46,760 bases of DNA from Neoroseomonas soli (GTDB taxonomy: Bacteria > Pseudomonadota > Alphaproteobacteria > Acetobacterales > Acetobacteraceae). A program made the position numbers and the translations under genes. The notes beneath the pieces are model-generated. The model saw only the letters and a list, made by a program, of their open reading frames with translations. It was not told the DNA's origin and did no database searches. The DNA lies in NCBI RefSeq assembly GCF_018129065.1, contig NZ_JAAEDM010000032.1:1-46760 (forward strand), read 5' to 3'. Shown here piece by piece: positions 21,484 to 43,006 of the stretch (positions within the stretch are counted from its first letter, which is position 1; every line of letters starts with the position of its first letter).

Positions 21484-21617
21484 GGGGGGAGAAGAGAACT
21501 TCTCCCCCCATACCCCCCTCAACCTTCTTTGGGTTTTGGGGACTGACCGCGATGGTCAGCGCCAGAAATCCAAAGAAGGGAGGGGGTTCGGGGGAGGTTC
21601 ACCCTCCCCCGACCTTC
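21484..21617. repeat. A-type palindromic repeat, copy 1 (full length)
   Basis: A 134-base element between the VOC and FkbM genes. It starts with a 10-bp hairpin two bases after the VOC stop, has inverted arms containing CCTTCTTTGG and CCAAAGAAGGGAGGGGG around a central CTGACC...GGTCAG, and ends with a GGGGGAGG/CCTCCCCC hairpin and GACCTTC. The FkbM start codon lies four bases beyond. Related copies lie at 22381, 32421 and 42845. Confidence 0.85.
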
Positions 21618-22380: not shown

Positions 22381-22421
22381 CCAAAGAAGGGAGGGGGAGC
22401 GGGGGAGGTTCTCCTCCCCCG
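22381..22421 (+). repeat. A-type palindromic repeat, copy 2 (half element)
   Basis: A single arm containing CCAAAGAAGGGAGGGGG and an 8-bp GGGGGAGG/CCTCCCCC hairpin with a TTCT loop. It fills the short gap between the FkbM stop and the DUF938 start (22433). The left arm and centre of the full element are missing. Confidence 0.8.
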
Positions 22422-29049: not shown

Positions 29050-29664
29050 ATGCGCCTGCCCCGCCTGGCGCCGCGGCTGCTGGTCTCGCTGCCGCTCTCG
29101 GGGCTGTGCCTCGCTGCCCGGGCGGCGGGACAGGATCTCGCCGCCGCGGCTCTGGCCGCCGCGATCATCGTCGCCTTCCTGGCGCCGACCGCGCGGCCGG
29201 CGGGCATCGTCGCCTGCGCGCTGGCGGCCGGGATCGCGACCTGGCTCTGGGTGGGCGGGACGGGTGGGGCCCGGGCGGTGCTCGCGGCGCTGCCCCTGGC
29301 CGGGAACCTGACGCTCGCCTGGCATTTCGGCGCGACGCTGCGCCCGGGGCAGGAAGCCCTGATCGTCCGCTACAGCCGCGCCGAGCACGGGGAGATCCCG
29401 GCCGGGCTCGTGCGCTACGCGCGCCGGCTGACGGCGCTCTGGACGGCGTACTTCCTGCTCTTCTCCGCGATGAACGCGGCGACGCTGGCGGGCTTCGGGC
29501 CGCCGGCGGGGCCCTCGGCGGCGCTCAACATCGGCCTCGCCGCGGCGTTCTTCCTCGGCGAGCATGTGGTGCGCGGCATGGTCTTTCCCGAACTCGGCCC
29601 GGTGCGGCCGTGGCGGACGCTGCGCGCCATCTGGCGCGCCGACGCGGTGCCCCATGCCCGCTGA
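29050..29664 (+). CDS. APE-locus membrane protein (COG4648-like)
   Basis: A 204-residue polytopic membrane protein with about six hydrophobic helices. Between them lie ALPLAGNLTLAWHFGATLRPGQEALIVRYSR and RRLTALWTAYFLLFSAMNA, a pattern found in the COG4648 membrane proteins that recur in aryl polyene loci between the ACP and the acyl ligase. The molecular role is unknown. The position in the operon supports the call: it starts five bases after the ACP stop and its 3' end overlaps the ligase gene by 11 bases. Confidence 0.75.
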   Translation: MRLPRLAPRLLVSLPLSGLCLAARAAGQDLAAAALAAAIIVAFLAPTARPAGIVACALAAGIATWLWVGGTGGARAVLAALPLAGNLTLAWHFGATLRPGQEALIVRYSRAEHGEIPAGLVRYARRLTALWTAYFLLFSAMNAATLAGFGPPAGPSAALNIGLAAAFFLGEHVVRGMVFPELGPVRPWRTLRAIWRADAVPHAR

Positions 29665-30982
29665 CGCCGCCCTGCCGCTGACGTCCCGCGCGCCGCACGA
29701 AGTGATCTTCCACCGCGGGCGGGAACCGGTGACGACGGCGCGTTTCCTCGCCGAGGTGGCGGCCCTCGCCGCGCGCCTGCCGGCGGAAGGGCCCGTCCTG
29801 AACTTCTGCGCCGACCGCTACCTGGCGCTGGTCGGCTTCGCCGCGGTGCTGTCGCGGGGCCAGGTGACGCTGCTTTCCGCCGACCGTTCCCCGCAGCGCC
29901 TGGCCGACATCGCCCGGCTGCACGGGGCGCGCTGTGCGCTCGCGGACACCGAGGCCGAACTGCCCGTGCCGGTGCTGCGGCCGGATGCCGCGCCCGGTGC
30001 CGATGCGCCGAACCCGCTCATCCCCGCCGGGGCGGTGGCTGCGATCGCCTTCACCTCCGGCAGCACGGGGGAGCCGCGGCCGCATGCCAAGCCCTGGGGC
30101 GCGCTGGTGGCCGGGGCGCGTGCCGCCGCCGAGCGGTTCGGCGTGACATCGGGCACGGCCATCGTCGGCACGGTGCCGGCGCAGCACATGTACGGTTTCG
30201 AGACGACCCTGATGCTGCCGCTGCATGGCGGCGGGGCGGGGCACGCGGGGGCGGTCTTCTACCCCTCCGACATCGCGGAGGCCCTGGCCGGCGTACCCGC
30301 GCCGCGCCTGCTGGTGACCACGCCGCTGCAGATGCGCGCGGTGCTCGGGACGGGCATCGCGCTGCCGCCGCTCGCCGCCGTCATCTCTGCCACCGCGCCG
30401 CTCGATCCGCGCCTCGCCGCGGAGGCCGAGGCGGCCTGGGGCGCGCCCGTGCTCGAGATCTACGGCGCCACCGAGGCCGGGTCCGTCGCCTCCCGCCGCA
30501 CGCTGGAGGGCGATGCCTGGGAACCCTATCCCGGCACGGTCTTCGCCATCGCCGAGGACGGGGCGGACGTGACCGTGCCCGGCCTGCCGGCGCCGGTGCC
30601 GCTCTCGGACACGCTGGAGCCCCTGCCGGAAGGCCGCTTCCGCCTGGCGGGGCGGCGGGCGGACATGGTGAAGCTGGCGGGCAAGCGCGCCTCCCTCGCC
30701 GGGCTGACGCGCATCCTCACCGACGTCGAGGGCATCGCGGACGGCGTCTACCTCGCGCCGGCGGATATCGACGACAACCCGCGGGCGCGGCTCGCGGCGC
30801 TGGTGGTGGCGCCGGGAATGACGCCGAAGGCCGTGGTGGCGGCGCTGCGCGGGCGGATCGAGCCCGCCTTCCTGCCGCGCCCGGTGGTGATGGTCGATGC
30901 GCTTCCGCGCGATGGGGTGGGCAAGCTGCGGCAGGCGGAACTCGCCGCGCTCGCCTGGCCCCGCGGCCCGGTGCGGCGCTGA
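29654..30982 (+). CDS. AMP-binding acyl-CoA/ACP ligase of the APE operon
   Basis: A 442-residue adenylate-forming enzyme, shorter than typical acyl-CoA synthetases, as is usual for the ligase of aryl polyene loci (ApeH type). Motif A3 is TSGSTGEPRPHAK (134-146), A5 is YGATEAG, and the hinge region is FRLAGRRADMVKLAGKRAS; the C-terminal domain is reduced. It would activate an aryl acid such as 4-hydroxybenzoate or a cinnamate and load it on the ACP. The starter acid must be made elsewhere, because no ammonia lyase is visible. Its ATG overlaps the preceding gene by 11 bases. A 166-base gap follows, the largest in the operon. Confidence 0.85.
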   Translation: MPADAALPLTSRAPHEVIFHRGREPVTTARFLAEVAALAARLPAEGPVLNFCADRYLALVGFAAVLSRGQVTLLSADRSPQRLADIARLHGARCALADTEAELPVPVLRPDAAPGADAPNPLIPAGAVAAIAFTSGSTGEPRPHAKPWGALVAGARAAAERFGVTSGTAIVGTVPAQHMYGFETTLMLPLHGGGAGHAGAVFYPSDIAEALAGVPAPRLLVTTPLQMRAVLGTGIALPPLAAVISATAPLDPRLAAEAEAAWGAPVLEIYGATEAGSVASRRTLEGDAWEPYPGTVFAIAEDGADVTVPGLPAPVPLSDTLEPLPEGRFRLAGRRADMVKLAGKRASLAGLTRILTDVEGIADGVYLAPADIDDNPRARLAALVVAPGMTPKAVVAALRGRIEPAFLPRPVVMVDALPRDGVGKLRQAELAALAWPRGPVRR

Positions 30983-31148
30983 TACCGGCCAGACTTTCGG
31001 CTGCTTCGGCACCAGCGCGCCTGGTCCTGCGCGCGGCCGCCCCAGCCGCTCCGCGCGCCAATTCACCGGGCCTGGATCGGCAAGGCCCGGCGGCATGAGC
31101 CCTGCACCGCCCATTCAACCCGGCCCCGGACTGCCGTAGAAGGCGCCC

Positions 31149-31505
31149 ATGGCCTCCGACCCCAGCCGCGGCCCGGCCGCCCGGCGCCCGGACGAGGTGC
31201 CGCCCCCGCCCACGCATGTCGCCCGCTTCGCCGTGCCGCCGGACCATCCCGCCTTGCCCGGGCATTTCCCGGGTCATCCGGTCGTGCCTGGGGTCGTGCT
31301 GCTCGACCGGGTGGCCGAGGCGGCACGCATGGCCTTCGGCCTTGGCCCCCTGCGCGGGCTCCCGAGGACGAAATTCGCCGCCCCCGTCCTGCCGGGGCAG
31401 GACGTGCGCGTCGTGCTCACCCTGCTCGCGCCCGGCCGCGTCGGCTTCGCCTGCGAGGCCGATGGCCGGCCGGCGGCAGCCGGGGACATGGCCTTCACGG
31501 CATGA
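31149..31505 (+). CDS. Hotdog-fold 3-hydroxyacyl-ACP dehydratase (ApeI-like)
   Basis: A 118-residue single hotdog domain with the FabZ/FabA-type motif LPGHFPGHPVVPGVVLLD; His39 is the likely catalytic residue. It would remove water from the 3-hydroxyacyl intermediate after ketoreduction. The first 25 residues are Pro/Arg-rich and look disordered. AGAAGG precedes the ATG at suitable distance. The stop overlaps the acyltransferase start (ATGA at 31502-31505). APE systems use two dehydratase-like proteins, and a second one lies at 37374. Confidence 0.8.
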   Translation: MASDPSRGPAARRPDEVPPPPTHVARFAVPPDHPALPGHFPGHPVVPGVVLLDRVAEAARMAFGLGPLRGLPRTKFAAPVLPGQDVRVVLTLLAPGRVGFACEADGRPAAAGDMAFTA

Positions 31506-32407
31506 GCGGCACCGCCGCCTGGGCCGCGACGCCGGAGCGCGGCAACGCCGCCGTGCTGCGGCTGATGACGCGCATCGCGCTCGGCCTCGGCTGGCCGGTG
31601 GCGCATGCGCTGCTGCACCCGATCACGCTGTTCTTCCTCGCCACCTCGCCCGCCGCGCAGAAGCGTACGGCGCGGCGCTACCTGGGGCGGGCGCTCGGCC
31701 GGCCGGCGGGGTGGCGCGACCTCTGGCGGCTGTATTTCTGCTTCGCCTCGACGATGCTCGACCGTGTCTTCCTGCTGACCGGGCGCACGCGTGGCTACCA
31801 TGTGCAGGTCGAGGGGCTGGAGATTCTGCGCGACGCCGCCGCGCGCGGGCAGGGGATGGTGGTGCTCGGCGCGCATATGGGTTCCTTCGAGGCGTTGCGC
31901 GCGGTCGGCGGCGCCGGTGCGCCGGTCGAGGTGCGCATGATGATGCACACCGCCAATGCCGGCGCCGCGGACGCGCTGTTCGACAGCCTCGACCCGACGC
32001 GCGCGGCCGCCGTCATCCCGCTCGGCCGACCCTCGGCGATGCTGGCGGCGCGGGAGGCGCTGGAGCGCGGCGGCGTGGTGGGGATCCTCGCGGACCGCGC
32101 GGTGAGCGGCGACCGCATGCTGCCGGCGGAATTCCTCGGTGCGCCGGCGACGCTGCCCGGCGGGCCGATGACGCTCGCCGCGATCCTGCGCGCGCCGGTG
32201 GTGCTGGGCTTCGGGCTGTGGCTCGGCCCGCGCCGCTACCTGCTGCGCTTCGAACCCTTCGCCGAGGCGATCGACCTGCCACGGGACCGGCGCGAGGCCG
32301 CGTTGCGCGAATGGCTCGGGCGCTACGCGGAGCGGGTCGGCGAGATGTGCCGGGCGCATCCCTACAACTGGTTCAACTTCTACGACTTCTGGGGGGAGGA
32401 GCCGTGA
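31502..32407 (+). CDS. Lysophospholipid acyltransferase (LpxL/HtrB-like)
   Basis: A 301-residue membrane-associated acyltransferase of the LPLAT superfamily. The catalytic HX4E motif is in LGAHMGSFEAL (His125, Glu130), followed by the acceptor-pocket GILADRAVSGDRM. Such enzymes in APE loci are thought to transfer the aryl polyene, or a fatty acid, to a lipid anchor in the membrane. In many APE loci this domain is fused to a GT2 glycosyltransferase; here the two are separate genes, with a GT2 at 38602-39402 on the other strand. Its stop overlaps the GTG start of the LolA-like gene. Confidence 0.85.
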   Translation: MSGTAAWAATPERGNAAVLRLMTRIALGLGWPVAHALLHPITLFFLATSPAAQKRTARRYLGRALGRPAGWRDLWRLYFCFASTMLDRVFLLTGRTRGYHVQVEGLEILRDAAARGQGMVVLGAHMGSFEALRAVGGAGAPVEVRMMMHTANAGAADALFDSLDPTRAAAVIPLGRPSAMLAAREALERGGVVGILADRAVSGDRMLPAEFLGAPATLPGGPMTLAAILRAPVVLGFGLWLGPRRYLLRFEPFAEAIDLPRDRREAALREWLGRYAERVGEMCRAHPYNWFNFYDFWGEEP

Positions 32408-33066
32408 GGTGGCGGTGGCTGAAGGTCGGGGGGAGTGAACTCCCCCCGAATCCCCCCTCCTTCTTTGGAACCAAAGAAGGGAGGGGGTTCGGGGGAGGTT
32501 CGCCTCCCCCGACCTTCCTGCGCCGCACCCTGCTGATCCTGCCCCTGGCCGCCCAGGCCCCCGACCCGCTGCCCGAGGTGATGGCGGCCCTCGCCGCCGT
32601 GCGCGAAAGCCGCGCCGCCTTCACCGAGGAGAGGGAACTCCCTGAACTCGACCGCCCGCTGATCTCGCGCGGCGTGCTGACCTGGCGCGCGCCCGATCGG
32701 ATGGAGAAGCATACGCTCGAGCCGGTCGAGGAACGCTTCCTCGCCGATGGCGACACGCTGGTCCTGGAGCAGCCCGCGCGCGGCATCCGCGAGACCATGG
32801 CGCTCGACGCCGTGCCCGAGGTGCGACCGGTGGTGGAGGCGATCCGCGCGACGCTTGCCGGCGACCTCGCCACACTGCGCGAGCATCACGAGGTGGTCTT
32901 CTCCGGCACCTTCGCGCGCTGGCGGATGGTGCTGACGCCGCGTTCGCTGCGCGTGCGCGCGGCGGTGCAGCGCGTGACGCTGGAAGGCGAGGGCGGCGCC
33001 ATCCTGGTGGTGGAGACGCAGATGCGCGACGGCCGCACCCGCATGGCGATCACCCCGCTGCGATGA
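32404..33066 (+). CDS. LolA-like carrier protein with a palindrome-coded N-terminal insert
   Basis: A 220-codon gene for an outer-membrane-lipoprotein-carrier-like protein of the APE operon. The mature part begins after LRRTLLILPLAAQA and has LolA features (AAFTEERELPELDRPLISRGVLTWRAPDRMEKHTLEP...FLADGDTLVLEQP), a concave sheet that could ferry a lipidated pigment through the periplasm. No ATG precedes the signal peptide in frame. The best start is the GTG at 32404, which forms GTGA with the acyltransferase stop. Between it and the hydrophobic core lies a 97-bp A-type palindrome read in frame, adding about 33 residues (TKEGRGFGGGSPPPTF type). Without it the protein would start MRWRWLRRTLLILPLAAQA. 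Confidence 0.75.
   Translation: MRWRWLKVGGSELPPNPPSFFGTKEGRGFGGGSPPPTFLRRTLLILPLAAQAPDPLPEVMAALAAVRESRAAFTEERELPELDRPLISRGVLTWRAPDRMEKHTLEPVEERFLADGDTLVLEQPARGIRETMALDAVPEVRPVVEAIRATLAGDLATLREHHEVVFSGTFARWRMVLTPRSLRVRAAVQRVTLEGEGGAILVVETQMRDGRTRMAITPLR
32421..32517 (+). repeat. A-type palindromic repeat, copy 3, inside the LolA-like coding region
   Basis: A near-perfect 97-base palindrome with arms of 48 and 47 bases around a two-base AA centre. It runs from GAAGGTC to GACCTTC and has no central CTGACC block. The bases CT flank it on both sides (GGCT before, CTGCG after), consistent with a 2-bp duplication; 97 plus 2 gives 99 bases, a whole number of codons. Confidence 0.88.
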
Positions 33067-35402
33067 GGCGCCTCGTCGCGCGCTATGCTGCCCTCTTCGC
33101 CGCGCTGGCGGTGCTGGCGCTGGCCTTCCCGCTGCTGCTGCGCCAGGTCTCGCTGCGCGGCGACATCGCCGATTTCCTGCCGGCGCCGAAGACCGAGGAA
33201 TCCGCCTTCCTGCTGGAGGAACTCCGCAGCGGCGCCGCGACGACGCTGCTGATCGCGGGGATCGAGGGCGGGGAGGCGCGCGACCTCGCGCGCGTCTCGC
33301 GGGCGATGGCGGCGCGGCTCGAGGCGAGCGGGCTTTTCGCGCTGGTGGCCAATGGCGCGCCGCGTATCGACGATGGCGAGGCGGCGCTGCTCATCGCGCA
33401 TCGCTACGCGCTCTCCCCGGCCGCGACGCCGGAAGCCTTCACCGAGGCGGCGCTGCGCCGCTCGCTGGAAGCCGTGCTGGACGGGCTGCGCGGCAGCGCC
33501 GCGCCGCTGGTGCGGCGCTATGGCTTCGCGGATCCGACCGGTGCCTTCCTCGCGCTGGTGCGGGGCTGGGCCGCGGATGCGCGCGTGGCGATGGAGCATG
33601 GCGTGTGGATGGCCGAAGGCCCCCGCGCGCTGCTGCTGGCGCAGTCCCGTGCCGGAGGCCTGGACACCGAGGCGCAGGCGCGCACGGCCGAGGCCTTCCG
33701 CGCCGCCTTCGCTGCCTCCGACCCTCCGCCGGGGGCGCGGCTGCTGCTCTCCGGGCCCGGCATCTTCGCGGCGGAGGCGGCGGCGACGGTGCGGGCGGAT
33801 GTGCGCCTCGTCTCGATGCTGTCCTCGGTGCTGGTCGCCGCCTTCCTGATCTGGCGCTACCGGTCGCCACTGATGCTGGCGGTGGTAGCGGTGCCGCTCT
33901 CGGCCGGCACGCTGGCGGCACTGGCGGTGGTCGATGCGGCGTTCGGGCATGTGCACGGCGCGGCGCTCGGCTTCGGCATGACCATGCTCGGCGTGGTGGA
34001 CGACTACCCGATCCTGCTCATCACCGGGCGCGCGCCGGGGGAGACGCTGCGCGAGGCCGCGCGCCGCATCTGGCCGACGCTGCGGCTGGCGACGGCGGCG
34101 GCGGTGGCTGGGCTCGTGCCGATGCTGGCCTCGGGCTTTCCGGGCCTGGCGCAGCTCGGCCTCTTTGCGGCGACGGGGCTGGTCGGCGCGGCGCTGACGA
34201 CGCGCTACCTGTTGCCCGCGCTGCTGCCGGCGGAAGGGCTGCCGGTGCGTCCGCTTCCGGAACGGCTCGCGCATGTGCTGCTGCGGCTGCCGGCGCGGCG
34301 CGGGGTGGTGCTGGCGGCGCTGGCGGTTGTCGCGGTCGCGCTGGCACTGGGCGGCGGGCCGCGCATGGAACGCGACCTGGCGGCGTTGAGCCCGGTGCCG
34401 GAGGCGGTGCGCGACCTCGACGAGGTGCTGCGGCGCCAGGTAGGTGCGCCGGATGTGCGCGTGGTGCTGACGCTGCGCGCGCCTGATGCCGAAGCGGCCC
34501 TTCAGGCGGCGGAACGGGCGGCGGAAGCGCTGGCGCCGCTGGTTGCCTCCGGCGCCATCGCCGGGCTGGATCACCCGGCGCGCTTCCTGCCGAGCGCGGC
34601 GACGCAGCGCGCGCGGCTCGCGGCATTGCCCGAGGCCGCCACGCTGGCAGAACGTATCGAGGCCGCGCGCCAGGGCCTGCCCTTCCGCGCCAATGCCTTC
34701 GCGCCCTTCCTCGAAGGCATCGAGGCCGCGCGGACGCAGGCGCCGCTGACGCCGGCGGATCTTCGCGCGGCGCCGCTGCTCGCCGCCCGGCTGGCTCCGC
34801 TGCTGCGGCAGGAGGAAGGCGGCGTCCGCGCCATCCTGCTGCCCACCGACATCCGCGACATGGCGGCGCTGCGCGCGGCCGCATCCCGCGTGCCCGGGCT
34901 GCTGCCGGTGGAGATCAAGGCGGAGACCGAGGCGATCCTCGCCGAGGCCACCGGCGCCGCGCTGCGCTGGGCCGCGGTCGGTGGCGTGCTGGTGCTGGTG
35001 CTGCTCGGCGCGGGGCGGGGGCTCGCCGGCGGATTGCGCATCGCCGTGGCGCTCGGCGGCGCGCTGATGCTGACCTTCGCCATGCTCGCAGCGCTGGGGG
35101 AACGGATCTCGGTCTTTCACCTGACCGCGGCGCTCTTGCTGGCCGGCGTCGGCATGGACTATGCGCTGTTCCTTGGGAATACCCGGGCCTCGGCCCGTTC
35201 CGGGGAGGCATCGACGGAGGAGGCAGCGCGGGCGCTTGGATCCGTCATCACCTGCATGGTCACCACCTTGCTCACCTTCGGGCTTCTCGCGCTCTGCCGC
35301 ACGCCGGTGCTGCACGCCACGGGGCTGACCGTGACGGTCGGCGTCGCGGCGGCCTTCCTGCTCGCCTGCGCCCTGGCGCCCGGACGGGGTGCGCCCCGCT
35401 GA
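33063..35402 (+). CDS. MMPL-family exporter of the APE operon
   Basis: A 779-residue RND-superfamily membrane protein of the MMPL type with two homologous halves, each with a first helix, a periplasmic domain and a block of about five helices. Proton-relay residues are visible in GVVDDYPILLITGR of the first half and GVGMDYALFLGNTR of the second. In APE loci this protein is proposed to move the lipid-linked pigment from the inner membrane towards the outer membrane, together with the LolA-like carrier encoded just upstream. Its ATG overlaps that gene's stop, and the ketosynthase gene follows after five bases. Confidence 0.9.
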   Translation: MRRLVARYAALFAALAVLALAFPLLLRQVSLRGDIADFLPAPKTEESAFLLEELRSGAATTLLIAGIEGGEARDLARVSRAMAARLEASGLFALVANGAPRIDDGEAALLIAHRYALSPAATPEAFTEAALRRSLEAVLDGLRGSAAPLVRRYGFADPTGAFLALVRGWAADARVAMEHGVWMAEGPRALLLAQSRAGGLDTEAQARTAEAFRAAFAASDPPPGARLLLSGPGIFAAEAAATVRADVRLVSMLSSVLVAAFLIWRYRSPLMLAVVAVPLSAGTLAALAVVDAAFGHVHGAALGFGMTMLGVVDDYPILLITGRAPGETLREAARRIWPTLRLATAAAVAGLVPMLASGFPGLAQLGLFAATGLVGAALTTRYLLPALLPAEGLPVRPLPERLAHVLLRLPARRGVVLAALAVVAVALALGGGPRMERDLAALSPVPEAVRDLDEVLRRQVGAPDVRVVLTLRAPDAEAALQAAERAAEALAPLVASGAIAGLDHPARFLPSAATQRARLAALPEAATLAERIEAARQGLPFRANAFAPFLEGIEAARTQAPLTPADLRAAPLLAARLAPLLRQEEGGVRAILLPTDIRDMAALRAAASRVPGLLPVEIKAETEAILAEATGAALRWAAVGGVLVLVLLGAGRGLAGGLRIAVALGGALMLTFAMLAALGERISVFHLTAALLLAGVGMDYALFLGNTRASARSGEASTEEAARALGSVITCMVTTLLTFGLLALCRTPVLHATGLTVTVGVAAAFLLACALAPGRGAPR

Positions 35403-35407
35403 GCCGC

Positions 35408-36592
35408 ATGGCTCCGCTCCGCATCACGGCGATCACCGCGACCAGCGCCATGGGCGTCGGGCTGGCGGGGACGCGCGAGGCGCTGGCGACGCGCCGCGGC
35501 GGCCTCGCGCCCTGCGACCTGCCCGGCATGCCGCCAGGCGTCTGGGTCGGGCGCGTGCGGGAGGCCGATACGGTCGAACCGCCCGCGGCGTTCGCCGCCT
35601 TCGCCTGCCGCAACACGCGGCTTGCGGAACTTGCCCTGCGCCAGGATGGGTTCACGGAGGCGGTGGCCGCTGCCGTCGCCCGGCATGGCGCCGGGCGCGT
35701 GGCCGTGGTGCTCGGCACCTCCACCTCCGGCATCGAGGAGACGGAGCAGGCCTGGTCCCGCCGTGGCGCGGACGGCGCGCTGCCGCCCTACGATTTCGCC
35801 TCTACCCACGACCTGCATGCGCTGCCGCGCTACGTGCGCGCGCGGCTCGGGTTGAAGGGGGCCTGCATCTCGATCTCGACCGCCTGCACCTCGGGCGCGC
35901 GGGCTTTCCTCGACGCGGCGACGCTGATCGCGGCGGGCGTTGCCGACGCGGCGGTGGTGGGCGGCGCTGACACGCTCTGCCGGCTCACGCTGCACGGCTT
36001 CGGCTCGCTGGAACTGCTTGCCAAGGGGCCGACGCGGCCCTGCGCGGAGGACCGCGACGGCATCTGCATCGGGGAGGCCGCCGCCTTCGCCCTGCTGGAA
36101 CGTGCGGGGCCGGAGGATGCGGGCGCGCTCGGGCTGCTCGGTGCCGGTGCTTCGTCGGACGGGCACCATATGTCCTCGCCGCACCCGGACGGGCTCGGCG
36201 CGGTGGTGGCGATGCGCGCGGCGCTCGACAGCGCGGGCCTCGCGCCGTCGCAGATCGACTACGTCAACATGCACGGCACCGGCACGCGCGCGAACGACGC
36301 GATGGAGGACCGTGCCCTCGCGCGGATCTTCGGCGATGCGGTGCCCTGTTCCTCCACCAAGGGCTGGACGGGCCACACGCTGGGCGCCTCGGGCGCGCTG
36401 GAGGCGGCGATCTCGACGGTCTGCATCGAGGCTGGGCTGGTGCCGGGCTGCCTTGGCCTTGACCGCGCGGACCCGTCCTTCGCCTCCGGCATCGTGGTGA
36501 CGAACCGGGCGGCGCGCGTGGACCGGGTGCTGTCCAATTCCTTCGGCTTCGGCGGCAGCAACTGCGCGCTGGTGATCGGGCGGCTGCCGTGA
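35408..36592 (+). CDS. Beta-ketoacyl-ACP synthase of the APE operon
   Basis: A 394-residue FabF-like condensing enzyme that adds two-carbon units from malonyl-ACP. The active-site triad is complete: Cys160 in STACTSG, His289 in NMHGTGT and His323 in TGHTLGASGA, with the C-terminal SFGFGGSN loop. It would pair with the chain-length factor encoded next. APE systems often have a second ketosynthase (ApeR and ApeO), but only one is visible here. The stop overlaps the GTG of the chain-length factor gene (GTGA at 36589-36592). Confidence 0.92.
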   Translation: MAPLRITAITATSAMGVGLAGTREALATRRGGLAPCDLPGMPPGVWVGRVREADTVEPPAAFAAFACRNTRLAELALRQDGFTEAVAAAVARHGAGRVAVVLGTSTSGIEETEQAWSRRGADGALPPYDFASTHDLHALPRYVRARLGLKGACISISTACTSGARAFLDAATLIAAGVADAAVVGGADTLCRLTLHGFGSLELLAKGPTRPCAEDRDGICIGEAAAFALLERAGPEDAGALGLLGAGASSDGHHMSSPHPDGLGAVVAMRAALDSAGLAPSQIDYVNMHGTGTRANDAMEDRALARIFGDAVPCSSTKGWTGHTLGASGALEAAISTVCIEAGLVPGCLGLDRADPSFASGIVVTNRAARVDRVLSNSFGFGGSNCALVIGRLP

Positions 36593-37377
36593 CGCTCGCC
36601 GTCGGCATCGCCGGGATCGGGCTGCTCGGGCCGGGGCTCGCGGGCTGGGTGCAGGCCGCGCCGGTGCTGGCCGGTCGCGTCCCGCACGAGGCCGCGCCGC
36701 TCACCCCGCCCGCGCCTGCCATGCTGCCGGCCACCGAGCGCCGCCGCACCGGCCCCTCGGTGCGCCTGGCCCTCGCCGTGGCGGCGGAGGCGGTGCAGGA
36801 CAGCGGCGTGCCGCCGGAGGAACTCGATACCGTCTTCGCCAGTTCCAATGGCGAGGGGCAGGTGATCACCTCGATCCTCGAGGCGCTGCACACGCCGGAC
36901 GGGGCCATCTCCCCGACGCAGTTCCACAATTCGGTGCACAACGCGGCGGCGGGGTACTGGGGCATCGCGGTGGGATCGTCGCGGCCCTCGGTCAGCCTGG
37001 GTGGGCATGACGGGGTCTTCGCCACGGGGCTGCTGCATGCGGCGGCGCAGGTCGTGGCCGGCCGCCGGCCCGTGCTGTTCGTGGCGCATGACGTGCCGCT
37101 GCCGCCGCCGCTCGACGCATTGCGGCCGACCAGCGCGCCCTTCGCGATCGCCATGGTGCTGACGCCCGCGACAGGGACGCGCGGCGCGCTGCGCCTGGAA
37201 CAGCGCGACCTGGCCGCGCCGCCGCCGCTGCTCCCGCCAGGTCTCGACGCGCTGCACGGCGCCAATCCGGTGGCGCGCGCCCTGCCGCTGCTCGCCGCCC
37301 TTGCGGCCGGCGGCGCGGCGGAGATCCTGCTGCCGATGCTCGACGATGCGAGCCTGGCGGTGACGGTGGCGGCGTGA
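36589..37377 (+). CDS. Ketosynthase chain-length factor (ApeC-like)
   Basis: A 262-residue ketosynthase-like protein with the short N-terminal ketoacyl-synthase domain typical of aryl-polyene chain-length factors (Ketoacyl-synt_2). The block SPTQFHNSVHNAAAGYWGIA replaces the active-site cysteine region, so it should be catalytically inactive in condensation and set polyene length as the partner of the adjacent ketosynthase. RRRTGPSVRLALAVAAEAV near residue 60 is also family-typical. It is coupled to both neighbours by GTGA overlaps (36589 and 37374). Confidence 0.88.
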   Translation: MTLAVGIAGIGLLGPGLAGWVQAAPVLAGRVPHEAAPLTPPAPAMLPATERRRTGPSVRLALAVAAEAVQDSGVPPEELDTVFASSNGEGQVITSILEALHTPDGAISPTQFHNSVHNAAAGYWGIAVGSSRPSVSLGGHDGVFATGLLHAAAQVVAGRRPVLFVAHDVPLPPPLDALRPTSAPFAIAMVLTPATGTRGALRLEQRDLAAPPPLLPPGLDALHGANPVARALPLLAALAAGGAAEILLPMLDDASLAVTVAA

Positions 37378-37802
37378 AGGCCCTGCCGGCGACGCGGGAG
37401 GCGATCGCGCGCCTCATTCCCCACCAGGGCGGGATGTGCCTGCTCGACCGCGTGGACTCCTGCGATGCGGAGGCGATCGCCTGCGCCGCGACCAGCCACC
37501 GCGACGCAGCCAATCCGCTGCGGCGGGACGGCATGCTGCCGGCAGTCTGCGGCGTCGAATACGCGCTGCAGGCGATGGCACTGCACGGCGCGCTGACCGA
37601 GGGCGCGCCGCAGGGCCGCGGCTTCGTCGCGGCGCTCTCGGGCGTGGAGATCGCGGCCGCGCGGCTGGATGATGTTGCGGGCGTGCTTTCCGTCTCCGCC
37701 ACCGCGATGGCGCGGGAGAGCCGCGGCTTCATCTACCGCTTCGCGGTCGAGGGGGAGGGACGATGCCTGCTGAGCGGGCGGGCGACGGTGGTGCTGGCAT
37801 GA
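37374..37802 (+). CDS. Second hotdog dehydratase (ApeP-like)
   Basis: A 142-residue hotdog protein with the ApeP-type start IARLIPHQGGMCLLDRV (His17 likely catalytic) and CGVEYALQAMALHG on the central helix. In APE synthesis a pair of dehydratases forms a heterodimer; the other partner is probably the ApeI-like protein at 31149. It starts with GTG overlapping the chain-length factor stop. Its last 24 codons are part of an 89-bp tandem duplication that also contains the start of the next gene, so a near-copy of its C-terminal end is repeated downstream in a micro-ORF. Confidence 0.85.
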   Translation: MKALPATREAIARLIPHQGGMCLLDRVDSCDAEAIACAATSHRDAANPLRRDGMLPAVCGVEYALQAMALHGALTEGAPQGRGFVAALSGVEIAAARLDDVAGVLSVSATAMARESRGFIYRFAVEGEGRCLLSGRATVVLA

Positions 37803-37908
37803 CGCGCGCCCTCGTCACCATCTACCGCTTCGCGGTCGAGAGCGAGGGGCGCCGCCTGCTGATCGGGCGGGCGAGGGTGGTGCTGGCATGATCCGCGCCC
37901 TCGTCACC
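37731..37908. repeat. 89-bp direct tandem duplication across a stop-start junction
   Basis: Copy 1 (37731-37819) and copy 2 (37820-37908) are adjacent and differ at about nine positions. Each contains the dehydratase 3' end, the ATGA overlap and the first codons of a reductase-type start. The period is not a multiple of three. Confidence 0.95.
37799..37891 (+). CDS. 30-codon chimeric micro-ORF made by tandem duplication
   Basis: The frame starts at the ATG that overlaps the dehydratase stop (ATGA 37799-37802) and ends at the TGA that overlaps the reductase start (ATGA 37888-37891). It encodes MTRALVT, nearly the reductase N-terminus (MIRALVT), fused to a 23-residue near-copy of the dehydratase C-terminus (from IYRFAVE). 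Ribosomes leaving the dehydratase would have to pass through it to reach the reductase by coupled reinitiation. Whether the peptide has a function is unknown; it may be only a translational relay. Confidence 0.6.
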   Translation: MTRALVTIYRFAVESEGRRLLIGRARVVLA

Positions 37909-38592
37909 GGCGGCGCGAGCCCGATAGGTGCCGCGATATGCCGCGCGCTGGCCCGCGACGGCCATGCGGTGATCGTCCACGCCCATGCCCATGCCGAGCG
38001 AGCGGCGGCGCTGGCCGATGAGATCGGCGGGACGAGCATCGCATTCGACCTCGCCGACCACGACGCCTGTCGCATCGCCTGCGAGGCCTTGCTGCAGGAC
38101 GGCCCGATCCAGGTGCTGGTGCACAATGCCGGCACGCATGAGGACGTGCCCATGGCGGGCATGAGCGAGGCGCAGTGGCGGCGCGTGCTCGCCGTCTCGC
38201 TCGACGGCTTCTTCCACGTCGCGCGGCCGCTGCTGCTGCCGATGATGGGCACGCGGCGCGGGCGGATCGTGGCGATGTCCTCGGTGTCCGCCATCATGGG
38301 GAACCGCGGCCAGGCGAACTACGCCGCCGCCAAGGCGGGGCTGATCGGCGCGGTTCGGTCGCTCGCACTGGAATGCGCGCCGCGCGGGGTGACGGTGAAC
38401 GCGGTCGCGCCCGGGCTGATCGAGAGCCCCGCCGTCGCCGCCGCCGTGCCGCCCGAGGCGGTGCGGCAGATGGTCCCCGCGCGGCGGCTCGGCCGGCCGG
38501 AGGAGGTGGCGGAACTCGTCGCCTTCCTCTGTTCCGACCGCGCGGCCTACATCACGGGGCAGACCGTTTCGATCAACGGCGGGATGGCGTAG
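37888..38592 (+). CDS. 3-oxoacyl-ACP reductase (FabG/ApeQ-like)
   Basis: A 234-residue short-chain dehydrogenase that would reduce the beta-keto group of the growing chain with NADPH. The cofactor loop is TGGASPIG, followed by HNAG, the catalytic Ser132 in MSSVSAIMGN, and Tyr145/Lys149 in NYAAAKAG; the C-terminal TGQTVSINGGM is FabG-like. It is the last gene of the coupled plus-strand operon. Its start is reached through the micro-ORF created by the tandem duplication. Ten bases separate its stop from the end of the convergent GT2 gene. Confidence 0.92.
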   Translation: MIRALVTGGASPIGAAICRALARDGHAVIVHAHAHAERAAALADEIGGTSIAFDLADHDACRIACEALLQDGPIQVLVHNAGTHEDVPMAGMSEAQWRRVLAVSLDGFFHVARPLLLPMMGTRRGRIVAMSSVSAIMGNRGQANYAAAKAGLIGAVRSLALECAPRGVTVNAVAPGLIESPAVAAAVPPEAVRQMVPARRLGRPEEVAELVAFLCSDRAAYITGQTVSINGGMA

Positions 38593-41213: not shown

Positions 41214-41873
41214 TCAAGCGATGCGCGCGAGCCAGCGCCGCCGCCGGAGCAGCCGCGCGAGCAGTCGCCCTGTCACGTACCAGTGGACCATGAGGCCTTC
41301 CGTCAGCAAGGCCGGCAGGTCCGGGCGGAACGCGTCCTCCGCTGCCACCGGCGCGACGGCGAGACCGAGGCCGCGCGCCATGAGCAAGGTGCGGTGCAGG
41401 TGCAGCCGGCTGGTCACCAGCGCCTCCGGCCCCGACGCTGGACCTGTCGTCCTGTGGTTGCGCAGGTTCTCGAGCGTATGGCGGGAATGCGTCTCCATGC
41501 CGATGCGCACGGGATCGAGGCCATGCGCGACCAGCCAGTCGCGGCCGGCCTCGGCCTCGCTCGGCGCGCCCGGCGCCGAGCGTCCTCCGAGCACGACCAG
41601 GTCCGCCCGCGGGCAACTACGTGCGAGGACGAGCGCCCGTCTCAGCCGCACGGCGAACACCGGCGAGGGCACACTGCCCCGCAGCCGGTGGCCGAGCACG
41701 AGGATGCGCCCCGGGGGTGCCTCGGGCGCCATCCCCGCCCGCCGGGCCGTCCGCAGCACCGCGAGCGTCGCCGCCAGGGGCGCCAGGCCGCCGGTCAGCA
41801 CCGCGACGGTCGCGGCCGCAGCCAGGGTGATCGCGCCTTCAGGGCCGAGGAAGGGCGGCTCGCGTTCCGTCAC
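41214..41873 (-). CDS. YdcF-like (DUF218) protein
   Basis: A 219-residue protein with two N-terminal hydrophobic stretches and a DUF218 domain: ILVLGHRLRG, RRALVLARSCPRADLVVLGGRSAPGAPSEAEAGRDWLVAHGLDPVRIGMETHSRHTLEN, and VTSRLHLHRTLLMARGLGL. The GG...SEA...E...T-EN pattern is diagnostic. Family members (SanA, YdcF, ElyC) act in envelope maintenance and may bind a nucleotide or lipid carrier. It begins with GTG overlapping the stop of the lipoprotein hydrolase (GTGA at 41870-41873), so the two are coupled. Confidence 0.85.
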   Translation of the reverse strand: MTEREPPFLGPEGAITLAAAATVAVLTGGLAPLAATLAVLRTARRAGMAPEAPPGRILVLGHRLRGSVPSPVFAVRLRRALVLARSCPRADLVVLGGRSAPGAPSEAEAGRDWLVAHGLDPVRIGMETHSRHTLENLRNHRTTGPASGPEALVTSRLHLHRTLLMARGLGLAVAPVAAEDAFRPDLPALLTEGLMVHWYVTGRLLARLLRRRRWLARIA

Positions 41874-43006
41874 GCCGCAAGCCAGGCCCGCGCCGCGGCC
41901 TCGGAACCCGAGGGCAGCGGGAGGCGCGAGTCCATCGACCAGGCGGTGATGTCGCGCGCCACGCGGTCCCCGCGCGTGTCGCGCAGCAGCATGTGGTAGC
42001 CCTCCGGATAGAAGCCGGCGCGCTGCCGGGCGGGGTCCGGCAGGGCGGAGAGCAGCCGGCGGGTCGGCGCCGCCGGGACCAGCCTGTCCTGCCCGCCGTA
42101 GAGCAGCAGGGCCGGCGCGCGGAAGCGCGGCGCCGCCGCAACCGCCGCATCCATCAGGTCCACCAGCCCCGCGATGGCATCCACCCGCGTATTGCGGATC
42201 AGCAGCGGGTCGCGCGACCAGCGCTGCCAGGCTTCCATGTTGTCGGTCGGCTGGAAGCCGGGCGCGCTGTTCACGACGCCCATCATCGGCACCACCGAGA
42301 CCATGAGATCGAGCATGTTGCGCGCGAGCCAGCCGAGGCTCGCCCGCCCGACCACGGCAGGGGCCAGCAGCACGTAGCCATCCGCAGGCGGTGGCGTGCG
42401 GGAGGCGCCGGCGACGAGCAGCACGGCGCCGCCCATGCTCTCCCCCATCATCACCACCGGCACGCGCGGGTGGCGGGCGCGGATCAGGCGGGCGGCCTCG
42501 GCGGCGTCGGCGGCCATCGCCTCATGGCCGGCCCAGATGCCGCGGTTGGGCGCGCCCCCGAAGCCGCGCTGGTCGTAGCCGTAGAGGCCGACGCCCTCGC
42601 TGGTGAACCGGGCGGCGGCGTCCTGCAGGAAGGCGCGGGCATGCTCGTTCATGCCATGCAGGCCGACCACGATGGCCTTGGGCGGGCTGGGGGGCAGCCA
42701 GGCATGGAGGGGGAGGCGCGCGCCATCGGCCATGACCAGGGCATCGCCGAAAAGCGAGGGGGAGGCGACCGGCGGGCCCATCGGTGCGCGCGCGGGGGCG
42801 CAGCCGGCGGCGGCGAGGGCGGCCAGGACGGCCCGGCGGGGGAAGAAGGGCGGGGGAGGGGAACCTCCCCCGCTCCCCCGCCCTTCCTTGGTTCCTGGGA
42901 ACTGACCTCGGCTGTCAGTCTCCAGGGAACAAAAAAGGGAGGGGGCTCGGGGGAGGTTCACCCTCCCCCGACCTTCCTTCCGTCCGTCGCGCCCTGTTCG
43001 GATCAT
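41870..43006 (-). CDS. Lipoprotein alpha/beta hydrolase with a palindrome-coded N-terminal insert
   Basis: A 378-codon serine hydrolase of the monoacylglycerol-lipase-like type: VVGLHGMNEHARAF, YGYDQRGFGGAPNRG, nucleophile Ser190 in GESMGG, and a late PALLLYGGQDRLVPA block. A lipobox ends the signal peptide (AAAGC, Cys69). The only in-frame ATG is at 43006, and between it and the hydrophobic core (RRAVLAALAAAGC) lies a 132-bp A-type palindrome read in frame as residues 11-54. Removing it leaves MIRTGRDGRK joined to FPRRAVLA, a normal lipoprotein signal. An internal GTG at codon 16 is also inside the repeat. It is coupled to the YdcF-like gene downstream. Confidence 0.8.
   Translation of the reverse strand: MIRTGRDGRKEGRGRVNLPRAPSLFCSLETDSRGQFPGTKEGRGSGGGSPPPPFFPRRAVLAALAAAGCAPARAPMGPPVASPSLFGDALVMADGARLPLHAWLPPSPPKAIVVGLHGMNEHARAFLQDAAARFTSEGVGLYGYDQRGFGGAPNRGIWAGHEAMAADAAEAARLIRARHPRVPVVMMGESMGGAVLLVAGASRTPPPADGYVLLAPAVVGRASLGWLARNMLDLMVSVVPMMGVVNSAPGFQPTDNMEAWQRWSRDPLLIRNTRVDAIAGLVDLMDAAVAAAPRFRAPALLLYGGQDRLVPAAPTRRLLSALPDPARQRAGFYPEGYHMLLRDTRGDRVARDITAWSMDSRLPLPSGSEAAARAWLAA
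42845..42976 (-). repeat. A-type palindromic repeat, copy 4, inside the hydrolase coding region
   Basis: A 132-base full-length element with inverted arms, terminal GGGGGAGG/CCTCCCCC hairpins and a central CTGAC...GTCAG. On the minus strand it begins GAAGGTC and ends CGCCCTTC. It codes for 44 residues without a stop in the hydrolase frame, including TKEGRGSGGGSPPP, the same peptide frame as the copy in the LolA-like gene. Confidence 0.88.

Follow-up and report, generated by a model that had tools for sequence, protein, structure and literature searches.

The window analysed here is a stretch of 46,760 nucleotides from Neoroseomonas soli, whose plus strand carries at positions 31502-35402 an acyltransferase gene (31502-32407), a LolA-like gene of 220 amino acids (32404-33066; match to LolA_3, PF19574, E 2.7e-11) and an MMPL exporter gene (33063-35402). 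The GTG start of the LolA-like gene (32404-32406) is preceded by AGGAG and overlaps the TGA of the acyltransferase gene. Besides the acyltransferase and the exporter, the neighbourhood encodes an AMP-binding ligase, a FabA-like dehydratase, a ketosynthase and a FabG-type reductase, which additionally gives a sub-threshold match to the flexirubin FlxB model; the LolA2_flexi match lies far under the cut-off (24 of 125 bits). The region holding the LolA-like gene (29564-38592) is presumably an aryl-polyene/flexirubin-like gene cluster.

Inside the LolA-like gene, in frame within the n-region of its signal peptide, lies a compact palindromic element of 97 bases (32421-32517, plus strand) made of two inverted arms without a centre. 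The sequence and coordinates given for it by an earlier sequence-only reading are right. Its description as near-perfect is appropriate if small bulges are allowed; in an ungapped comparison, 70 of the 97 positions match the element's own reverse complement. As DNA the element folds into one long hairpin (-41.4 kcal/mol, z -7.0), the RNA of 32390-32560 reaches -125 kcal/mol (z -8.3), and in neither case did any of 200 shuffles fold as well. The element contains no stop in the reading frame, its length fits the frame, and it is followed by two arginines and the hydrophobic core LLILPLAAQA. Between element and core there is no in-frame ATG, GTG or TTG in either the host draft genome (G000; 5.24 Mb in 216 contigs) or Neoroseomonas eburnea LMG 31228 (G003), in agreement with the earlier claim that GTG 32404, coupled to the upstream stop, is the only usable start. 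A candidate for a rare CTG start lies just 3' of the element in G000 and has no equivalent in G003.

N. eburnea shares this compact copy, identically placed and in an unchanged reading frame, with 10 differences in 97, and the two LolA-like proteins are 82% identical from residue 1. The N. eburnea gene starts with a TTG coupled to the upstream stop; two alternative starts, an ATG immediately 5' of the element and a GTG within the element centre, would each still translate element sequence. Among 16 LolA-like upstream regions (15 genomes of the genus plus G048; G010 was dropped as its anchor was missed, and none was seen there by eye), BLAST detected family DNA in four, always in frame: the two copies above, a right half of the element in G030 that has the same 3' junction as G000, and an arm with part of a centre in G006. 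Five orthologues of the same genus (G012, G032, G001, G014 and G004) have an empty site, at which a GTG or TTG overlapping the upstream stop is followed by a short n-region, for example VTRRALL, with two arginines and the core. These orthologues, together with the dispersal of the family described below, bear out the proposal of a repeat inserted in frame within a signal-peptide coding region. The empty site expected in close relatives was found, in a different form from the one proposed: MRWRWLRR with a single CT occurs in no orthologue seen, and where the element is missing the n-regions read V(T/R)RR or LKRR and lack the RWRW residues too. A tree of LolA-like and MMPL sequences joins G000 and G003 at 100/100 and places G030 and G006 elsewhere without resolution. 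The LolA-like copies may stem either from a single ancient insertion followed by decay or from several separate events; the 3' junction of G030 favours one insertion, and the additional centre sequence of G006 points to more than one, or to an ancestral copy that was longer. A hairpin in the LolA-like n-region of G020 and G021 was considered as a remnant and rejected, since it gave no family match by BLAST and weak GC-rich matches at most. In G018 (L017) short tandemly repeated units of SRDCLGAP type, without any palindrome, lengthen the n-region, which indicates that this n-region has been remodelled in more than one way.

The search for further copies suggested by the sequence-only reading revealed a dispersed family, with at least 86 matches in the host genome from the 40 of 117 candidate places that were scored. 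Genes in this genome (71% GC) were called with a caller seeded on Pfam-supported genes, and 632,227 of its bases were studied as 36 stretches picked around matches plus the window, a copy-enriched sample whose density is not that of the genome. These contain 90 arms forming 56 elements, of which 34 have two inverted arms and 22 are one-armed. In a typical full copy of about 130-140 nt, a 48-nt arm, GAAGGTCGGGGGAGGnGAACCTCCCCCGAACCCCCTCCCTTCTTTGG, is followed by a centre that varies between copies and then by the same arm inverted, sometimes in diverged form; the LolA-like copy of the window is such an element without its centre. The ends of the two-armed copies read GAAGGTC...GACCTTC or close variants. 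Most copies are intergenic and lie downstream of genes: 36 of the 56 elements are placed between co-directional genes, 16 between convergent and one between divergent genes, one is at the end of a stretch and two are flagged as inside or between frames. The window itself holds two intergenic copies, with two arms at 21484-21617 and with one arm at 22381-22421. For 16 of the 71 upstream-gene relations in the host genome, the stop codon extends into the element, typically as T+GA or TAA at the element's edge; at L042:8566 and L054:5473, the first bases of the element complete the upstream stop (TGA or TAA).

RNAalifold of 21 copies yields three stems with 40 pairs, in which 824 of 835 cells are paired. 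One reading is that the arms are kept by selection on a regulatory RNA (or DNA) structure, acting for instance in mRNA stability or in translation control at the start of the gene, with the peptide as a by-product. Between G000 and G003, in pairs of similar length, identity is 777/855 (91%) in the arms, 218/315 (69%) in the centre and 1131/1350 (84%) in the 75-nt flanks, although the arms were picked by similarity, which favours conserved ones. Double changes that preserve pairing occur at 6 of the 40 pairs in the 21 copies and at 5 of 43 pairs in five hydrolase n-regions, counts that have no control and include pairs broken in several other copies. The location of most copies downstream of genes is likewise consistent with a structural role; homogenisation between copies, however, would look alike, and no Rfam family matched the window or L046 at gathering score. 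Identity with a known Rfam RNA was rejected, all matches being below that score and mostly to miRNA-type hairpins. Selection on structure is a reasonable possibility that we hold to be somewhat short of probable; it is compatible with the explanation favoured below and hence no strict rival to it.

Family matches are present in 16 of 35 genomes of the same genus, and the same 16 hold the LolA-like gene. None was found in 288 other genomes of the class among the candidates scored, at most three per genome, which is weak evidence of absence. In 1.99 Mb of N. eburnea, both flanks of 22 element places align with G000; at least one arm is kept at 19 of these places and absent at three. Taken with the identities of arms, centres and flanks, these shared places suggest that the family is mainly inherited and that its arms are constrained or homogenised. 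One presence/absence pair is L037:2758-2887 in G000, where a whole element separates two genes and is followed by an ATG, and L114 in G003, where the genes overlap at GTGA.

A currently mobile element, moved by a transposase that uses CT or similar targets and inserted separately and recently into the LolA-like genes, would fit the three differing places and the centre that G006 has and the window copy lacks. When offsets are allowed, two of the 34 two-armed copies have flanking 5-nt repeats (0.7 expected) and one has a 6-nt repeat (0.16 expected). Against mobility, no adjacent direct repeat of at least 3 nt, the criterion for a target-site duplication, was seen in any of the 34; most of the aligned places are common to both species; and G000 and G030 have the same LolA-like 3' junction. 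The CT noted earlier on both ends is present at the window copy, and its significance disappears in the family: CT stands on both sides of only two of the 34 copies, a matter of chance, and left and right flank dinucleotides agree in three against 2.3 expected by shuffling. Nor did the suggested tie to RAYT transposases hold, as the search for a RAYT-type TnpA gave no Y1_Tnp (Y1/RAYT transposase) match at E <= 0.001 in the 16 carrier genomes, in a search that covered the Y1_Tnp family alone and was positive in 5 of 14 control genomes. The sole Y1_Tnp match in the 35 genus genomes (G027:C7:20625-20960) is in a genome without the repeat family. Present mobility is on balance unlikely.

The clearest recurrence lies in the same window and was missed by the sequence-only reading: a full-length element (42845-42976, minus strand) forms, in frame, the n-region of another exported protein, a lipoprotein alpha/beta-hydrolase of 378 amino acids (41870-43006, minus strand; Hydrolase_4, E 2.4e-52). 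Here ATG 43006 is followed by the whole element and then by FPRRAVLAALAAAGC. N. eburnea has the same start ATG and an in-frame element, one codon shorter overall. The hydrolase gene is present in 35 of 35 genus genomes, and 20 loci were compared (G016, cut by its contig, was left out). Family DNA precedes the core in 8 of 15 carriers (G000, G003, G012, G021, G032, G018, G028 and G011) and is lacking in seven (G010, G030, G006, G001, G014, G004 and G020); none of four genomes without the family has it there, their n-regions being short, for example MTMKPFITSRRALL, with a nearby ATG. All eight have an uninterrupted reading frame across the element. No ATG, GTG or TTG lies between element and core in G000, G003 or G021; the only later starts in G012, G028 and G032 are TTGs placed after the arginines, G018 has a TTG after the element from which a later start is possible, and G011 has a GTG at the start of its surviving arm. 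Family DNA is also found in the signal peptide of a cytochrome c in three of five genomes, as a full element in G000, as a right arm in frame in G020 and as a left arm in G012, with none in G006 or G018. Both the LolA-like and the hydrolase gene retain the two arginines beside the core; the cytochrome c lysines are supplied by the element, whose centre in G000 provides GTG-AAG-AAA.

Under a strict test for N-terminal cases, requiring no ATG, GTG or TTG from the element to 16 codons into the downstream coding segment, three of 34 downstream genes in G000 were left, namely the LolA-like gene, the lipoprotein hydrolase and the cytochrome c. Reading all 34 genes adds L046:1260, before a protein that is seemingly not exported and presumably resembles a glycosyltransferase, so that three of the four N-terminal in-frame cases read in these 632 kb precede exported proteins, a number too small to show enrichment before signal peptides. 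Among 44 genes in G003 the test left the LolA-like gene and L167, to which inspection by eye adds two more, the hydrolase and that glycosyltransferase-like gene; in 42 loci of nine other genomes (43 elements, 25 downstream genes) none was left. The test misses real cases, such as the N. eburnea hydrolase and the G006 LolA-like copy (L065), even though the latter was included. L033 and L167 were rejected as N-terminal insertions, both genes having a start after the element. In-frame copies also occur at C-termini. In both species the C-terminal ~44-47 residues of a GT4-type glycosyltransferase are encoded by a full element (L046:2482-2614 in G000, L145:4351-4481 in N. eburnea); its neighbour L046:1260-1390 runs in frame into the start of the glycosyltransferase-like gene, and a second C-terminal copy is in a gene at L107 in G003. 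The non-exported N-terminal case and the C-terminal fusions indicate that the element is not specific to signal peptides.

These observations are best explained, in our view with good probability, by an old and mainly inherited REP/BIME-like repeat that is read in frame as an n-region and most likely removed by signal peptidase. The family would be confined, as far as searched, to one group of a Roseomonas/Neoroseomonas-type genus, passed on mainly by vertical inheritance and maintained in its arms as three stems. The LolA-like copy may have settled behind the start codon no later than in an ancestor that the window species shares with N. eburnea. Since it holds no stop in frame and its length fits the frame, ribosomes starting at GTG 32404 would read through it, giving a predicted signal peptide with ~32 extra n-region residues before the conserved RR and hydrophobic core. 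Variation in the n-region is tolerated by signal peptides, and everything before the mature protein is taken off by signal peptidase I or II, so the extension should be disposable: the peptidase would most likely cut off all of it and leave the exported protein unchanged, which would explain why insertions are tolerated in the LolA-like protein, the lipoprotein hydrolase and the cytochrome c. The family, its common position, the open frame and the lack of a later start can be read directly from the genomes; translation, cleavage and harmlessness of the extension are what they predict. The pN/pS of the element peptide is 0.36 in the LolA-like gene and 0.62 in the hydrolase, and 0.45 to 1.87 in the five other frames of the hydrolase element, values that do not establish selection on the peptide. 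Other element pairs, too, often differ in length by multiples of three, so lengths give no statistical support for frame-keeping.

An improbable reading is that the element is instead a 5' untranslated or intergenic RNA element and that translation begins downstream of it, from a non-standard codon such as the CTG of the window copy. It is consistent with the intergenic position of most copies, with a start after the element in 31 of 34 downstream genes in G000 and with the statement that many N-terminal REPs are probably not coding (PMC3733652). Against it, the LolA-like gene of G003 has no NTG codon at all from element to core, the empty-site orthologues begin at the coupled GTG or TTG, the hydrolase has no ATG, GTG or TTG from element to core in three genomes, and its upstream ATG is common to G000 and G003. 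Unless a rare start is used, the extended n-region would thus have to be translated.

A broader, tentative and rather doubtful view is that signal-peptide n-regions offer a conserved palindromic RNA element a safe harbour, and that in some genes the element itself provides the start codon and the n-region. At the 5' end of a coding region the element would preserve its fold, together with any regulatory role, while signal peptidase discards the peptide, and one stretch would serve as both RNA element and disposable coding sequence across the divergence of many species. An RNA role in parallel to a coding role would be compatible with the sequences. N-terminal palindromic repeats are usually dismissed as probably extragenic; with no start after the repeat in two species and the frame kept in several, that doubt becomes testable. 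If the preferred explanation is true, repeats may enter proteins by a simple rule, in segments that get cut off, which can be tested by proteomics and reporters. A further result is the description of a repeat family that has no RAYT and whose arms have diverged less than the DNA around them.

Among known systems, GTAG/CGTC REPs and BIMEs are many-copy short palindromes, often in inverted pairs and mainly between co-directional or convergent genes (PMC3733652). Their ends supply stop codons (TAG) to upstream genes, some copies lie inside ORFs, many N-terminal ones may be extragenic since translation can begin later, and CGTC repeats are given there as missing in Acetobacteraceae (PMC3733652). 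Our family resembles them in its copy number, inverted pairs, mostly extragenic position downstream of genes and completion of upstream stops by the element edge, with TGA/TAA in place of the TAG of GTAG REPs. Unlike REPs, it carries neither a GTAG nor a CGTC tag at its ends, as judged from the 34 copies with two arms, is larger (three stems) with no RAYT found, and leaves no standard later start in the LolA-like and hydrolase genes of G000 or G003. Because the tests for a GTAG tag and a RAYT failed, we call the family REP-like and not a RAYT-associated REP. MITEs are non-autonomous repeats with inverted ends that are able to fuse with ORFs (PMC10969869); here there was no target duplication in 34 copies and no partner transposase was identified. 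The same review describes Rickettsia RPEs as palindromes inserted in frame in alphaproteobacterial protein genes (PMC10969869). The likeness to RPEs proposed earlier is fair as a way of working; in the LolA-like and hydrolase genes the frame is open and no later start follows, so translation of the element is predicted. The family is set beside RPEs by description and not by sequence; unlike RPEs, most copies here are intergenic, and three of the four N-terminal cases are signal-peptide n-regions whose residues should be removed. A literature search limited to titles and the beginnings of abstracts, with few subscription journals, found no report on the family or on signal peptides that contain palindromic repeats. 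Earlier work has described intragenic REPs as well as Rickettsia RPEs; what is new is a family without RAYT that recurs in signal-peptide n-regions across species.
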